The position numbers and the translations under genes were made by a program. Under the pieces are notes generated by a model. It was given only the letters and a program-made list of their open reading frames with translations. It was not told the DNA's origin and ran no database searches. DNA of 64,000 nucleotides, from the NCBI GenBank assembly GCA_022484565.1, contig JAKVKZ010000006.1:1-64000 (forward strand). The letters are read 5' to 3'. The DNA comes from Muribaculaceae bacterium. Lineage in GTDB: Bacteria; Bacteroidota; Bacteroidia; Bacteroidales; Muribaculaceae. Below, piece after piece: positions 5,202-64,000 of this stretch (the stretch's first letter is position 1; every line of letters begins with the position of its first letter).

Positions 5202-5290
5202 GGGGGCAACCATCGGGAAAAATAAATTGGACACCCATGTAAATTATGGCGGTTCAGTAGTGTACGATGTGTTTTGCCCGTCCAGACCCC
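5202..5290 (+). repeat. 90-bp element, intergenic copy 1
   Basis: Starts ATAGGGGGGCAACC, continues with AAATTGGACAC and ends GTTTTGCCCGTCCAGACCCC. The same framework recurs at 5432-5521 and inside both RepA-like genes (33558-33647, 33999-34088, and on the minus strand 62645-62734 and 63050-63139). The 3' end reads GACCCC rather than GCCCCC, so the outer inverted repeat is imperfect here, and stop codons show it is not coding. Confidence 0.75.
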
Positions 5291-5431
5291 TCTCTCGGAT
5301 TTTTATGATTTTCACCAGTCAAATTGGTTAATCTTTATCCATGCTCTTTGTTCTCTCTAGTTTGGAAATGCCGTTTTTTCTTCCTCTTTTTATTTAGGCG
5401 TTTCAGACTTGTGGCTATGTGGAGTGGAATA

Positions 5432-5521
5432 GGGGGCAACCACCGGGAAAAATAAATTGGACACCTTTGTAAATAGTGCTTGTTCAGTTATTTAAGTGGC
5501 GTTTTGCCTGTCCAGACCCCC
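5432..5521 (+). repeat. 90-bp element, intergenic copy 2
   Basis: Starts ATAGGGGGCAACC, has AAATTGGACACC in the same place and ends GTTTTGCCTGTCCAGACCCCC. It is a direct repeat of the copy at 5202-5290, with strong identity in the two ends and a divergent middle. It lies about 150 bases upstream of the ybeY -7 box. Confidence 0.75.
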
Positions 5522-31190: not shown

Positions 31191-31391
31191 ATGATGCAGA
31201 TGGAATGGAATATAGAAGTTGAGGAAACCCTTTGCCGTAAAGTTACAGTAGAGGCGGAAACTTTGGCCGAAGCGCTTGAAAAGGTGAATCGTGAATACAA
31301 AGCGGAGAGGGTAGTCCTTGACTGGTCTGATTTCATTTGCGTTGAAATCAAGCCGGCAGCAAATGGTTCATCCAAAATTTCCCCAAAGTAG
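31191..31391 (+). CDS. DpnD/PcfM-like small protein
   Basis: 66 residues. The segment RKVTVEAETLAEALEKVNRE followed by VVLDWSDFICVEIK is the DpnD-PcfM C-terminal domain pattern (a strand, a helix, and a VLD-x-DF end). The name comes from a conjugative plasmid gene and a gene beside the DpnII system; the function is unknown. Two ATGs in tandem (31191, 31194) are possible starts. Hairpin repeats begin two bases after the stop. Confidence 0.7.
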   Translation: MMQMEWNIEVEETLCRKVTVEAETLAEALEKVNREYKAERVVLDWSDFICVEIKPAANGSSKISPK

Positions 31392-31392
31392 T

Positions 31393-31456
31393 GGCGCATC
31401 CATGTATGCGCCCTCCCGCACAATGGGTGATTTATCAATAAAATGCGAAGCATTTT
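31393..31456 (+). repeat. Hairpin repeat module, copy 1
   Basis: GGCGCATCCATGTATGCGCC (7-bp arms) followed 27 bases later by AAAATGC-GAA-GCATTTT at 31440-31456. Both parts recur at 31584 onward and 32220 onward. Confidence 0.75.
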
Positions 31457-31583
31457 TCCTCTATTTAATTCATTGACTATGAATTAAATAGGTCTCACTC
31501 TTTGCTCCTAAAGAGGGAGTACGGCGAAGCCGGGAGGGAGTTGCCAAAAAAGGTAATTTCCACTCATCCCTATCACATTGTAT

Positions 31584-31688
31584 GGTCGCATCCATGTATG
31601 CGCCCTCACGCATCATGGTTGTTTCATCAAAAAATGCAAAGCATTTTAAATCCCATCGGGCTTATTGGCCTTATCGGCCTCATCAGCC
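31584..31688 (+). repeat. Hairpin repeat module, copy 2, with 9-base tandem repeat
   Basis: GGTCGCATCCATGTATGCGCC, then AAAATGCAAAGCATTTT at 31631-31647, then about four 9-base units of the form TATYGGCCT at 31655-31688. The left arm has one change (GGT for GGC). Confidence 0.75.
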
Positions 31689-32044: not shown

Positions 32045-32441
32045 TTTTCAATTGTTTCTTTTGCAAAGGAAATGCATTTCCATCTAAATTCAAAATTTTT
32101 ATCTCTGTTTTTCCTGTTCGAGTTGCAAACCAATATAATTTCCTGCACAATAAAATGCAAAGCATTTTAAAGAATTTGGCGAATTAGGCTCATCGGGCCA
32201 ATTCCCAAATTTGCCCTAGCCCATTGTAGGGGCGCATCCATGTATGCGCCCCTACAATGGGTGCTTTATCAATAAAATGCAAAGCATTTTAAATCCCATC
32301 GGGCTTATTGGCCTTATCAGCCCCATCAGCCCCCAATCCACCCCCCCAAAAAAAAATCTCATTTTTTCCGTTTTCCTTGCATCCCCCTTTTCCCCTCCAT
32401 TAAATTCGTGCAATTAATCAAACTAAAGAGAGGAAATTATT
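32045..32441. other. Gene-free stretch with hairpin repeats upstream of the RepA-like gene
   Basis: About 400 bases: AAAATGCAAAGCATTTT twice (32152-32168, 32274-32290), the long perfect hairpin at 32220-32261, 9-base repeat units and a C/A-rich run before ATG 32442. No TAnnTTTG match was found in front of the RepA-like gene. Confidence 0.5.
32220..32333 (+). repeat. Hairpin repeat module, copy 3, perfect 18-bp inverted repeat
   Basis: CCCATTGTAGGGGCGCAT, six-base loop CCATGT, then the exact inverse (32220-32261); then AAAATGCAAAGCATTTT at 32274-32290 and 9-base GGCCTTATC-type units. This is the fullest copy of the module. Confidence 0.8.
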
Positions 32442-35207
32442 ATGTTACCACGTGGAAATGAACGTTGGCGCAACCATGGCGACGACATCGACTACCGTCT
32501 TGAGGAAAACCGCAAGCGCCGCCACAGGGCGTATCTGAAATTCCGTCTGATCGACAGCAACCGCGACGTGCGTCTCGGCGGTCTGCAGGGCGAACGAATC
32601 GACCTTTGGAAGGGAATCTGGTTTGACGGCGATATCAGCTGCCTCTTTTCCGACACCAACCTCGGCAAGAGCATCCTCGCCGTCCAGATTGGCGACGAGG
32701 TGGCGCACCGTTTCGGTCGCTGCGTGCTCTATTACGATTTTGAGCAGTCACACCGCCAGTTCCACATGCGCTATTCCACCCCCGAGGGTTCCTATCCGTT
32801 CTCGCCCGCCTTCAAGCGCGGCACTCCAATTTACGACGATGGCGTTTTCGACATCGAGGATGCCCTCTATTCCATCAAGAATTCCGTCAGAATCATGGAA
32901 GCCCCGTTCCTGATTATCGACAACCTTTCCTCCCTTTGTTCGTCAGCATACTCCTCAGCCGCCTTCGGTGAGTTCATGACCGAATTGTGGAAGATGCAGC
33001 ACCTCTACGACCTGTCGATTCTGCTGCTCGCCCACACTTCCAAGCACAGTCCCTACCGTCCGCTGGGCCTCAACAATCTTGCATTCTCCCGCTCTTTCAT
33101 CAATCACTGCGACTCCGCCTTCGCCATCGGCCAGTCGGTCTCCGACCCCGAGGTGCGCTACATCAAGCAGATTAAGGACCGCACCGGCCATCTGGTTTAC
33201 AACACCAACAATGTCATCCCATGCACCATCCAGCGTGTCAACAATGGCTTGCGCTTTGTCGAGGGCAAGTGCTGCACCGAGGATTCCCTCATCAACCGCA
33301 ACTGCCTTTCCAGCGCCAAGGTTGACTCCATCCGTCTGCTTGCCTCGCAGCCCAATCTTTCCTACCGTGTCATCGCCAAGGCGCTCGGCGTCTCGCCAAC
33401 CACGGTCTCAAATATAGTTGCCAAGTTCGGCGCTTCCTCTGGCAAAATCACTCCGGAATCAAATCCTGAAATCATCACGGAATCCAAGCCGGAAATCAAG
33501 CCCGAACCAGCATCAAATCCATCCTCTGAACCTGCCCCTGAGGTCATCGAAAATATAGGGGGCAAACCCGCAGAAAAACAAATTGGACACTCCGATAACA
33601 TATCAGTTGCCCAACAGGTTGCAATCGTTTTGCCCGTCCAAGCCCCCCTCCAGCTCCAAGCCGAAAATTCATCTGAAATTCCGTCGGAAATTCCATCACA
33701 AACCGCCACGGAAATCACAACGGAATCCATTCCCGAAATAATTCCCGAAGCAGTATCTGAAATCAATTCAAAAGATGAGCCAAAAGCGGAAATAAAAGCC
33801 GAATCCGAGCCAAATTCCGAAAAAAATGCTGAATCAGTTGCCGAAATTCCCGATGAATCCGCCAATGAATCAAATAATGAGCCAAAACCAGCTGCCGAGC
33901 CAGTTGCCGAAATAACCGAGGAAATCCCAGCCGAAATCCCCACTGAATCAGTTGCCGAAATCCCCGCTCAATCCGCCCAAAACATCCCCGCAGTCATAGG
34001 GGGCAAACCCGCAGAAAAACAAATTGGACAGTATGCTAACTCATCTCTGGCCGAGCATGTTGCAATCGTTTCGCCCGTCCAAGCCCCCCTTCTTTCAGCC
34101 TCCCAGAATCCCGACGACCCTTCACTCCCCGACGATTCTCTCATGGCTCCATCAAATAAAGATATTGCATCATTCAATGATTTCTTACTTAATAATAATT
34201 CTAAAAACATGAAACGTCAAAATCCATTGCTAATCTCCGTGCCGTCGGAACTTTCAGCGTTCTACGACGTCACCTATCACGAAACTGTCGAGCGCATCGA
34301 GCAGCGCGACTACATTTATGTCCGCACTTACCGCCCCACACCCAAGGAACTTGCCGCTTATCCCGACTTCTTCCTCCAGGCCCTGCCCATCGAGGTGATG
34401 TACATCTGGGACCGCAACTGCCTCAACGACCTTCTCGTCCAGAAGGCTCTCGCAAAGGGCATTCCCGTACCGCCACGTTTCGCCGACGTTTACGACGCCT
34501 CCGACGCTTTTGCGCACTTCCACTTCTATAATGACGACCTTCCCAAGCCCGTCTGGCAGATAACTCCGCAGGTCATCGCGCGCCGCAGTCTGTTCGACCG
34601 CCTCAACCGTGATTTCTGCGACCGCGACTTCAACGCCACCTGCATCCGCCTCAATTCATGCGACACCCACCGCGGCAGCGACTTCTGCACCACCCGCGAG
34701 CTTGCCCAGTTCCCCGACTTCTTTGCCCAGTATGTGCCGCCCGAAGTCCTCTACCGCTGGGACGAGGCTGCTCGCTTCGACCTCATGACGCAGCGTGCCC
34801 GCGCTGCCGGCATCCCAGTCCCCAAGCGCTTCGATTTCGTCTATCCGGCCGATTCATTCTACCATCCTTCCGATTACCGTTATTCCGCGCCCTCCAGCGA
34901 CTTCGATTCCAGCGACCCGAATGCCATCAAGACCTTCGTCCCAACTCCCGACGAAATTGAGAATTTCCCTATGTTCTTCAATGAGTTCGACCGCAAGTGC
35001 CGTCCCATGCGTGGCACTTCCAACGACATATACGACTATTGCGCCTATCAGTGCCATCTTCAGGAGTTCCCCATCCCTCCCCGCATCGCCGAGATTTTCC
35101 CGCCCGACACCTTCCGTCACCGCACATCCGATCTCACCATCTTAGCCGATTGTGTGGTTCCTCCCTACATCACCCCTCAGCCCGTAAAACCCGATGATAG
35201 GAATTGA
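32442..35207 (+). CDS. RepA-like AAA ATPase with HTH, low-complexity linker and triple C-terminal module (copy 1)
   Basis: 921 residues. The RecA-fold domain (about 50-270) has a P-loop variant LFSDTNLGKSIL (Ser in place of the first Gly) and Walker B PFLIIDNLSSLC, as in AAA_25/RepA-type ATPases. A helix-turn-helix follows at about 300-340 (NLSYRVIAKALGVSPTTVSN). Residues 335-585 are a Glu/Pro/Ser linker with two 30-residue blocks IGGKPAEKQIG...VQAPL encoded by the 90-bp element. The C-terminus holds three related modules (about 629-690, 750-810, 833-895) of the form TPxEL..FPxFF...PxEVxYxWD...IPVPxRF. GC is high in the C-terminal half (a sampled 60-base line is 60% against 42% in manC). A near-identical inverted copy lies at 61529-64000. 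The function is unknown. Confidence 0.85.
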   Translation: MLPRGNERWRNHGDDIDYRLEENRKRRHRAYLKFRLIDSNRDVRLGGLQGERIDLWKGIWFDGDISCLFSDTNLGKSILAVQIGDEVAHRFGRCVLYYDFEQSHRQFHMRYSTPEGSYPFSPAFKRGTPIYDDGVFDIEDALYSIKNSVRIMEAPFLIIDNLSSLCSSAYSSAAFGEFMTELWKMQHLYDLSILLLAHTSKHSPYRPLGLNNLAFSRSFINHCDSAFAIGQSVSDPEVRYIKQIKDRTGHLVYNTNNVIPCTIQRVNNGLRFVEGKCCTEDSLINRNCLSSAKVDSIRLLASQPNLSYRVIAKALGVSPTTVSNIVAKFGASSGKITPESNPEIITESKPEIKPEPASNPSSEPAPEVIENIGGKPAEKQIGHSDNISVAQQVAIVLPVQAPLQLQAENSSEIPSEIPSQTATEITTESIPEIIPEAVSEINSKDEPKAEIKAESEPNSEKNAESVAEIPDESANESNNEPKPAAEPVAEITEEIPAEIPTESVAEIPAQSAQNIPAVIGGKPAEKQIGQYANSSLAEHVAIVSPVQAPLLSASQNPDDPSLPDDSLMAPSNKDIASFNDFLLNNNSKNMKRQNPLLISVPSELSAFYDVTYHETVERIEQRDYIYVRTYRPTPKELAAYPDFFLQALPIEVMYIWDRNCLNDLLVQKALAKGIPVPPRFADVYDASDAFAHFHFYNDDLPKPVWQITPQVIARRSLFDRLNRDFCDRDFNATCIRLNSCDTHRGSDFCTTRELAQFPDFFAQYVPPEVLYRWDEAARFDLMTQRARAAGIPVPKRFDFVYPADSFYHPSDYRYSAPSSDFDSSDPNAIKTFVPTPDEIENFPMFFNEFDRKCRPMRGTSNDIYDYCAYQCHLQEFPIPPRIAEIFPPDTFRHRTSDLTILADCVVPPYITPQPVKPDDRN
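33558..33647 (+). repeat. 90-bp element, in-frame copy A in RepA-like gene 1
   Basis: It runs from GGGGGC to GCCCCC, encodes IGGKPAEKQIGHSDNISV onward to PVQAPL and keeps the reading frame (30 codons). It shares AAATTGGACA and GTTTTGCCCGTCCA with the intergenic copies. Confidence 0.85.
33999..34088 (+). repeat. 90-bp element, in-frame copy B in RepA-like gene 1
   Basis: The same ends as copy A, 441 bases (147 codons) downstream. Encodes IGGKPAEKQIGQYANSSL onward to PVQAPL. The middle differs from copy A while the ends are almost unchanged. Confidence 0.85.
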
Positions 35208-61528: not shown

Positions 61529-64000
61529 CTACAAATGCTCAGGTTTTGCGGGCTGAGGGGTGATGTAGGGAGGAACCACACAATCGGCTAAGATGGTGAG
61601 ATCGGATGTGCGGTGACGGAAGGTGTCGGGCGGGAAAATCTCGGCGATGCGGGGAGGGATGGGAAACTCCTGAAGATGGCACTGATAGGCGCAATAATCG
61701 TAGATGTCGTTGGAAGTGCCACGCATGGGACGGCACTTGCGGTCGAACTCATTGAAGAACATAGGGAAATTCTCAATCTCGTCGGGAGTGGGGACGAAGG
61801 TCTTGATGGCGTTCGGGTCGCAGGAATCGAAGTCGCTGGAGGGCGCGGAATAACGGTAATCGGAAGGATGGTAGAATGAATCGGCGGGATAGACGAAATC
61901 GAAGCGCTTGGGGACTGGGATGCCGGCAGCGCGGGCACGCTGCGTCATGAGGTCGAAGCGTGCGGCCTCGTCCCAGCGGTAAAAGACTTCGGGCGGCACA
62001 TACTGGGCGAAGAAGTCGGGGAACTGGGCAAGCTCGCGGGTTGTGCAGAAGTCGCTGCCGCGGTGGGTGTCGCATGAATTGAGGCGGATGCAGGTGGCGT
62101 TGAAGTCGCGGTCGCAGAAATCACGGTTGAGGCGGTCGATCAGACTGCGGCGCGCGATGACCTGCGGAGTTATCTGCCAGACGGGCTTGGGAAGGTCGTC
62201 ATTATAGAAGTGGAAGTGCGCAAAGGCGTCGGAGGCGTCGTAAACGTCGGCGAAACGGGGCGGGACGGGAATGCCCTTGGCGAGAGCCTTCTGGACGAGA
62301 AGGTCGTTGAGGCAGTTGCGGTCCCAAATGTACATCACCTCGATTGGCAGGGCCTGGAGGAAGAAGTCGGGATAAGCGGCAAGTTCCTTGGGTGTAGGGC
62401 GGTAAGTGCGGACGTAAATGTAGTCGCGCTGCTCGATGCGCTCGACAGTTTCGTGATAGGTGTCGTCGTAGAACGCTGAAAGTTCCGACGGCACGGAGAG
62501 CAGCAATGGATTTTGACGTTTCATGTTTTTAGAATTATTATTAAGTAAGAAATCGTTGAATGATGCAATATCTTTATTTGATGGAGCCATGAGAGAATCG
62601 TCGGGGAGTGAAGGATCATCGGGATTTTGGGAGGCCGAAGGGAGGGGGGCTTGGACGGGCGAAACGATTGCAACATGCTCGGCCAGAGATGAGTTAGCAT
62701 ACTGTCCAATTTGTTTTTCCGCGGGTTTGCCCCCTATGACTGCGGGAAGATTTTGGGCGGATTGAGCGGAAATTTCGGTTGGGATTTCCTCGGCTATTTC
62801 GGCAACTGGCTCGGCAACGGGTTCAGGCTCACTATTTGATTCATGGGCGGATTCATCGGGAATTTCGGTGACTGACTCAGCATTTTCTTCGGAATTTGGC
62901 TTGGATTCGGTTTTTATTTCCGCTTTTAGCTCATCTTTTGGCCTGATTTCAGATACTGCTTCGGGAATTATTTCGGGAATGGATTCCGTTGTGAATTCCG
63001 TGGAGGTTTGTGATGGAATTTCCGATGAATTTCCGGCTTGGAGCTGGAGGGGGGCTTGGACGGGCAAAACGATTGCAACTTGTTGGGCCACTGATATGTT
63101 ATCGGAGTGTCCAATTTGTTTTTCTGCGGGTTTGCCCCCTATATTTTCGACGACCTCAGGGGCAGGTTCGGAGGATGGATTTGATGCTGGTTCGGGATTG
63201 ATTTCCGGCTTGGATTCAGTGATGATTTCCAGATTTGATTCCGGAGTGATTTTGCCAGAGGAAGCGCCGAACTTGGCAACTATATTTGAGACCGTGGTTG
63301 GCGAGACGCCGAGCGCCTTGGCAATGACACGGTAGGAAAGATTGGGCTGCGAGGCAAGCAGACGGATGGAGTCGACCTTGGCGCTGGAAAGGCAGTTGCG
63401 GTTGATGAGGGAATCCTCGGTGCAGCACTTGCCCTCGACAAAGCGCAAGCCATTGTTGACACGCTGGATGGTGCATGGGATGACATTGTTGGTGTTGTAA
63501 ACCAGATGGCCGGTTCGGTCCTTAATCTGCTTGATGTAGCGCACCTCGGGGTCGGAGACCGACTGGCCGATGGCGAATGCGGAGTCGCAGTGATTGATGA
63601 AAGAGCGGGAAAATGCAAGATTGTTGAGGCCCAGCGGACGGTAGGGACTGTGCTTTGAAGTGTGGGCGAGCAGCAGAATCGACAAGTCGTAGAGGTGCTG
63701 CATCTTCCACAGTTCGGTCATGAACTCGCCGAAGGCGGCTGAGGAGTATGCTGACGAACAAAGAGAGGAAAGGTTGTCGATAATCAGGAACGGGGCTTCC
63801 ATGATGCGGACGGAATTCTTGATGGAATAGAGGGCATCCTCGATGTCGAAAACGCCATCGTCGTAAATTGGAGTGCCGCGCTTGAAGGCGGGCGAGAACG
63901 GATAGGAACCCTCGGGTGTGGAATAGCGCATGTGGAACTGGCGGTGCGACTGCTCGAAATCGTAATAGAGCACGCAGCGGCCAAAACGGTGCGCCACCTC
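61529..64000 (-). CDS. RepA-like AAA ATPase, inverted copy 2 (5' end beyond window)
   Basis: The frame is open to the window end; it lacks the first ~85 residues including the P-loop, which lie outside. From EVAHRFGRC onward it is almost identical to copy 1: Walker B PFLIIDNLSSLC, the HTH, both in-frame 90-bp blocks and the three C-terminal modules. Differences cluster in the Glu/Pro linker: copy 2 lacks one EIPSE-type unit after NSSEIPS and about ten residues before SAQNLPAV, and has several substitutions (for example HESNSEPEPVAEP for NESNNEPKPAAEP). The C-terminus reads PQPAKPEHL instead of PQPVKPDDRN. It ends 25 bases from the LysR promoter. Confidence 0.88.
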   Translation of the reverse strand, partial: EVAHRFGRCVLYYDFEQSHRQFHMRYSTPEGSYPFSPAFKRGTPIYDDGVFDIEDALYSIKNSVRIMEAPFLIIDNLSSLCSSAYSSAAFGEFMTELWKMQHLYDLSILLLAHTSKHSPYRPLGLNNLAFSRSFINHCDSAFAIGQSVSDPEVRYIKQIKDRTGHLVYNTNNVIPCTIQRVNNGLRFVEGKCCTEDSLINRNCLSSAKVDSIRLLASQPNLSYRVIAKALGVSPTTVSNIVAKFGASSGKITPESNLEIITESKPEINPEPASNPSSEPAPEVVENIGGKPAEKQIGHSDNISVAQQVAIVLPVQAPLQLQAGNSSEIPSQTSTEFTTESIPEIIPEAVSEIRPKDELKAEIKTESKPNSEENAESVTEIPDESAHESNSEPEPVAEPVAEIAEEIPTEISAQSAQNLPAVIGGKPAEKQIGQYANSSLAEHVAIVSPVQAPLPSASQNPDDPSLPDDSLMAPSNKDIASFNDFLLNNNSKNMKRQNPLLLSVPSELSAFYDDTYHETVERIEQRDYIYVRTYRPTPKELAAYPDFFLQALPIEVMYIWDRNCLNDLLVQKALAKGIPVPPRFADVYDASDAFAHFHFYNDDLPKPVWQITPQVIARRSLIDRLNRDFCDRDFNATCIRLNSCDTHRGSDFCTTRELAQFPDFFAQYVPPEVFYRWDEAARFDLMTQRARAAGIPVPKRFDFVYPADSFYHPSDYRYSAPSSDFDSCDPNAIKTFVPTPDEIENFPMFFNEFDRKCRPMRGTSNDIYDYCAYQCHLQEFPIPPRIAEIFPPDTFRHRTSDLTILADCVVPPYITPQPAKPEHL
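62645..62734 (-). repeat. 90-bp element, in-frame copy B in RepA-like gene 2
   Basis: GGGGGC to GCCCCC as read on the plus strand; the minus strand encodes IGGKPAEKQIGQYANSSL onward to PVQAPL, matching copy B of gene 1. Confidence 0.85.
63050..63139 (-). repeat. 90-bp element, in-frame copy A in RepA-like gene 2
   Basis: The minus strand encodes IGGKPAEKQIGHSDNISV onward to PVQAPL, matching copy A of gene 1. The spacing to copy B is 405 bases, 36 fewer than in gene 1, because of the linker deletions, a multiple of three. Confidence 0.85.

Follow-up and report, generated by a model that had tools for sequence, protein, structure and literature searches.

A putatively lineage-specific, dispersed palindromic element of about 90 bp and its in-frame copies in RepA-like helicase genes of a Muribaculaceae bacterium

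A palindromic element of about 90 bp with nested arms occurs in 99 copies at 55 loci of the draft genome studied here, and we put at roughly two in three the probability that it is a lineage-specific, non-autonomous dispersed element of the kind of REPs, Rickettsia palindromic elements (RPEs) or MITEs. We favour this reading because the copies are dispersed and mostly intergenic, because their arms are paired, and because the genic copies are in frame. The result supports the preliminary description of the 64,000-nucleotide stretch of DNA analysed (the window), which had taken the repeat for a mobile or structured element rather than a protein motif. The window is part of contig 6 of the genome, a 2.95-Mb draft of 82.5% completeness with ORF-based gene calls.

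Both direct copies that had been described before ybeY and the four described inside two RepA-like genes were recovered, the latter all in frame and on the coding strand (Table 1), and the two intergenic copies lie head-to-tail with a period of 230 bp. A length of about 90 bases holds for the copies, but the exact 90 that had been given does not, as the first copy upstream of ybeY has 89 bases and copies elsewhere in the genome vary by a few. The pattern GGGGGCAAN{5,20}AAATTGGACA matched the window exactly six times and was absent from each of 100 dinucleotide shuffles, the pattern AAATTGGACAN{28,50}GTCCA recovered the identical six copies (0.01 expected), and a reversed-pattern control gave no match. 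Because the two host genes are nearly identical recent paralogs, the four genic copies of the window represent one shared insertion history and not four. Other palindromic repeats (GCGCATCCATGTATGCGC, AAAATGCAAAGCATTTTA, GGGCTTATTGGCC...) are located upstream of the RepA-like gene at positions 31388-31442, 31580-31634 and 32226-32280, and similar stretches are also present upstream of the second window paralog, C18 and C56.

Table 1. Element copies and RepA-like host genes in the window (CM, covariance model)
Feature	Position	Strand	Remarks
Type A element, intergenic copy 1	5202-5290	+	Upstream of ybeY; CM match, E 7.1e-21; pattern match
Type A element, intergenic copy 2	5432-5521	+	Upstream of ybeY; CM match, E 2.4e-21; pattern match
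RepA-like protein gene, 921 aa	32442-35207	+	AAA_25 ATPase, HTH, long two-element linker, C-terminal repeated domain
Type A element, in frame in RepA-like ORF 32442-35207	33558-33647	+	Encodes GGKPAEKQIGHSDN...VQAP; CM match
Type A element, second in-frame copy in ORF 32442-35207	33999-34088	+	Spacing 441; CM match
Second RepA-like paralog	61529-64000	-	95% identical; ends beyond the window, near contig position 64255
Type A element, in frame in second RepA-like paralog	62645-62734	-	CM match
Type A element, in frame in second RepA-like paralog	63050-63139	-	Spacing 405; CM match

The genome search with covariance models, proposed earlier as a way of telling an element from a protein repeat, returned far more than the six copies of the window. 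A type A model built from 16 exact-pattern copies detected 25 strong copies in the whole draft genome (E<1e-13) plus a weak tail, which on reading by eye disclosed two further types sharing the general plan. Type B (GTGTGTGC...GTGAACACC...GGTGTTCAC...CCCAC) differs from type A in its arm sequences and has the core in common with it, and its own covariance model yielded 66 strong copies (E<1e-10). Type C (GTGGGACA...TGTCCCAC) was picked up via weak model scores and accepted by eye on near-perfect inner arms, so its 8 copies are a lower bound. Judged by ORFs and Pfam, 48 of the loci are intergenic and seven genic, corresponding to 87 and 12 copies, respectively. The copies form arrays of one to six, always head-to-tail and with a single orientation within every array, with periods of 148-441 bp. 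Flank and spacer are duplicated together with the element, as in the six 231-bp units on contig C63, showing that multiplication within a locus proceeds by head-to-tail duplication of element plus flank. In L058 (1577-2851 and 3412 onward), this six-copy type B array precedes a 16S rRNA gene by a few hundred bases. In another locus, an abiF RNA (RF03085; L063 2162-2198, G000:C17:11161-11197) adjoins two type C elements.

The element has two nested pairs of arms, outer and inner, an asymmetric spacer on the left side and a weaker inverted repeat at its centre. In type A, the terminal inverted repeats GGGGGC/GCCCCC and the inner arms TTGGAC/GTCCAA were seen as previously described, and the conserved ends and variable middle were likewise confirmed, the arms remaining paired across copies. 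Across the types, the inner arms change jointly (TTGGAC/GTCCAA, GTGAAC/GTTCAC, TGGGAC/GTCCCA) with complementarity kept. In an alignment of 28 sequences, 81.3% of the cells were paired, compared with 74.5% after shuffling and at most 38% in slid controls, and the covariation score was 0.253 versus 0.142 for shuffled alignments (0/500) and at most 0.118 for slid controls; as the sequences were chosen by hand and trimmed by type, this test is supportive and not independent. Covariation support comes from two-sided changes at three well-paired inner-stem positions, and the central helix is weak. The paired arms may indicate either a single strand that folds on itself or, in double-stranded DNA, a symmetric site for a protein. 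No GTAG-type tetranucleotide is present at the hairpin foot, the flank before GGGGGC being mostly ATA or CAT, and no target-site duplication is visible beside the window copies.

All 12 genic copies are on the same strand as the gene and in frame. Stop-free frames around every copy contain recognised genes at no more than seven loci, and these are all paralogs of one RepA-like helicase and HTH family (contigs C6 (two), C56, C64, C8, C86 and C15). These proteins comprise an AAA_25/DnaB-like ATPase, an HTH and, directly after it, the element-bearing linker, with a C-terminal repeated domain in the longest forms. No nuclease domain was found in the RepA-like protein, a close-relative search of GTDB gave no relative of the C-terminal domain, and AlphaFold models of the N- and C-terminal parts were unusable (pLDDT about 35). 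The family occupies 0.45% of the genome and holds 7 of the 55 loci (P 6e-9); counting independent cases, three or more of 51 loci still gives P about 0.0016, and the restriction of genic copies to one gene family exceeds the expectation from random tolerance, which counts against the reading that we favour. In-frame copies in unrelated genes were not found in this genome. Other long ORFs over the arrays, whose occurrence is promoted by tandem periods that are multiples of three, had no credible Pfam match, and the small scattered matches of the C63 ORF to unrelated families were taken as artefacts of its repeats. Of 57 intergenic type B copies, 44 have no stop in forward frame 0, and the reverse frames are rarely open, which accounts for the strand and frame of the genic copies. 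The genic copies of three paralog groups form clades (supports 0.98, 0.94 and 0.98) that lie within separate subfamilies of the element, namely type A, the type B subfamily of C40/C62/C4/C2/C14 and the type B subfamily of C87/C42/C18/C38/C76/C89. These subfamilies are mostly made of intergenic copies, and neither the largest type B subfamily nor type C has a genic copy in the draft.

RepA-like homologs in other genomes mostly stop directly after the HTH, with neither linker nor element, and, lacking the 30-residue block, they do not bear out the protein-repeat reading. At the five short-homolog loci examined, the helicase gene is followed by one for a DUF6371 protein, which in most cases also has a zinc ribbon, and the same pair is found on a Bacteroides fragilis circular element with an integrase, an excisionase, a mobilization protein and cfxA. 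Because the short homologs are paired with DUF6371, including on this mobilizable cfxA element, an origin of the RepA-like family in the replication modules of mobile elements is most likely. The N-terminal helicase and HTH of the window genes are 37% identical to the AAA ATPase of the cfxA element (CP103138); whereas proteins of this module have nothing beyond the HTH, retain DUF6371 as a partner and carry no element, the long forms of the window continue into a linker and an additional C-terminal domain, and no DUF6371 partner adjoins them.

Searches of 198 other genomes of the family, among which no other genome of the same genus is listed, with the type A or type B model revealed no comparable copy, the two weak matches having E 6e-4 and 0.009, and the exact pattern had no match in GTDB species genomes or viral contigs. 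We infer a mobile origin for the element because its copies are dispersed and restricted to this lineage.

Long-form RepA-like paralogs are also encoded in a second genus of the family (g18), in which unrelated palindromic repeats likewise lie in frame in some of the linkers. In genome G179, one linker (L144) contains two short repeats that recur tens of times in the genome, and another (L153) contains an element of about 120 bp (CTCCCCC...CAATGG...GTTGAGC/GCTCAAC...CCATTG...GGGGGAG), of which five nearly complete copies, 84-93% identical, occur elsewhere. A linker in G145 (L146) carries an element of about 103 bp with at least six copies. No dispersed element was found in linkers L156 and L157, and all these counts rest on a post hoc choice of RepA-like linkers. 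Three 300-bp AAA-domain controls matched paralogs plus a few weak sequences at chance level. These nearly complete dispersed copies do not fall within long ORFs of their own strand, with one exception near the end of a 137-codon frame. A 40-bp palindromic repeat of L144 is moreover present in frame in the G179 genes for chorismate synthase (aroC), MiaB, the gyrase/topoisomerase IV A subunit (gyrA/parC) and PdxB, whose identities were confirmed by NCBIfam. At loci L170, L173, L179, L182 and L221, which cover miaB, aroC, gyrA/parC, pdxB and an unnamed gene, this repeat encodes SPSKIEGxGGSM or close variants. It is located in the N-terminal tail of the gyrase/topoisomerase IV A subunit; PdxB is matched by two models of its family that flank a stretch of about 60 residues where the profile has about 10 positions, and MiaB exceeds the length of its model by about 30 residues. 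The extra residues in PdxB and MiaB look like tolerated insertions. Genic copies are thus not exclusive to RepA-like genes in general, and in-frame presence alone does not imply partnership with the host protein.

Among the other explanations, we regard it as highly improbable that the repeat belongs to the RepA-like proteins as such and that the intergenic copies are gene debris. Every genic copy in this genome does fall within one gene family, but intergenic copies prevail and dominate the element subfamilies, the arms stay paired where the middle varies, and no other RepA-like coding sequence was seen in the ORFs around the intergenic arrays. A structured RNA or 3' UTR element under regulatory selection, such as a terminator or mRNA stabiliser, would agree with the covarying arms, with the one-sided changes in type A, most of which allow G-U pairing on the + strand (17 GU versus 4 AC), and with a bias of the loci to convergent gene pairs in rough ORF calls. 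We nevertheless consider it quite unlikely, given that in the folding suggested by the preliminary description most RNA or DNA folds of single copies were no better than shuffles, that A-C mismatches occur on the + strand in the type B subtype whose right arms read GTGTCCAG, that RNAalifold on the mixed types returned no structure and Rfam no match over the elements, and that arrays of up to six and copies in coding linkers are ill-suited to a terminator. Mobilization as classical REPs by a RAYT (TnpA-REP, a Y1 HUH enzyme) is unlikely as well. The elements are palindromic, dispersed and intergenic, and g18 genomes with similar repeats do encode divergent Y1_Tnp proteins, but in the window's genome (82.5% complete) neither Pfam PF01797 nor a custom profile of the divergent g18 proteins detected Y1_Tnp beyond a spurious match (E=0.24), the elements measure about 90 bp compared with 20-40 bp for REPs (PMC3733652), and the examined g18 RAYT-like genes are not flanked by RepA-linker repeats, bar one 21-bp partial match. 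The divergent RAYT-like proteins of g18 (L229, L230, L231, L235 and L236) are about 330 aa in length and have a long conserved C-terminal part. Integron attC sites and CRISPR were dropped on sequence inspection, as no core site was seen and the spacers belong to the tandem unit.

The lambda O gene carries its own origin, and a comparable arrangement may be envisaged in which each RepA-like helicase with its HTH is the cognate partner that binds or replicates its own element subfamily, the site being carried in its own linker and the intergenic copies being dispersed solo sites. We hold this idea tentatively. It would fit the confinement of all 12 genic copies to seven RepA-like paralogs, the three paralog groups, whose clades fall within separate element subfamilies, the absence of a detectable Y1 transposase from this genome and the identity of the homologs as replication helicases of mobile elements, paired with DUF6371. 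It would also fit two further g18 genomes that have their own unrelated dispersed repeats of about 100-120 bp in RepA-like linkers, where the AAA-domain controls matched almost only paralogs, and it has a published precedent in the REPs inserted in subclass 2.4 tnpAREP genes (PMC6006769). Against it stand the linkers that lack a dispersed element, the want of any genic copy in the draft for type C and for the largest of the type B subfamilies, and the lack of a recognisable nuclease domain, and we downgraded it because aroC, miaB, gyrA/parC and pdxB carry the G179 repeat in frame as well. As a partner of the element, the RepA-like family is the best candidate, attractive but unproven. Orphan RepA-like helicases might possibly drive or use the copies as partners of dispersed palindromic sites, which would amount to a RAYT-REP-like system built on a helicase and not on a transposase.

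For the dispersed, non-autonomous element that we favour, we surmise that new loci would arise by transposition in trans, through an enzyme recognising the folded or palindromic arms. Copies inside genes would persist only if they use the stop-poor strand and frame, and only in a linker or loop that can absorb about 30 additional residues, and the linker behind the HTH of the orphan RepA-like helicases would be the main tolerant site in the window's genome.

RPEs are palindromic repeats of about 90-150 bp that form several families and occur both between genes and in frame inside functional genes (PMC10969869; PMC3733652). The likeness to them that was pointed out earlier, compared here by described features, extends to size, palindromy, the existence of several families, the coexistence of intergenic copies with in-frame copies in otherwise intact genes, and the use of one strand and one frame. 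Unlike RPEs, the present element resides in a host of another phylum (Bacteroidales), forms strong head-to-tail arrays and has genic copies confined to RepA-like genes; the spread of RPEs over unrelated genes of one genome has a counterpart only in G179, with a different repeat. REP/RAYT systems, especially subclass 2.4, share dispersed palindromes, copies inside a DNA-processing gene and a subfamily matched to a gene group, whereas the host gene here encodes a RecA-fold helicase with an HTH, no Y1/HUH enzyme was found in this genome, and the length of the element is 2-4 times that of REPs. Dispersed inverted-repeat elements are also known in Bacteroidales from Porphyromonas gingivalis, as BrickBuilt and other MITEs, but BrickBuilt was reported to be strictly intergenic (PMC10969869), in contrast to the partly genic element of the window. 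High-frequency in-frame palindromic inserts have been described as a peculiarity of Rickettsia, with a similar process elsewhere merely conceivable (2024 review, PMC10969869). Two Bacteroidales genera now show in-frame palindromic inserts with unrelated repeats, core enzymes included, and the recurrent link to one helicase family would offer a concrete candidate protein as the missing agent behind such repeats.
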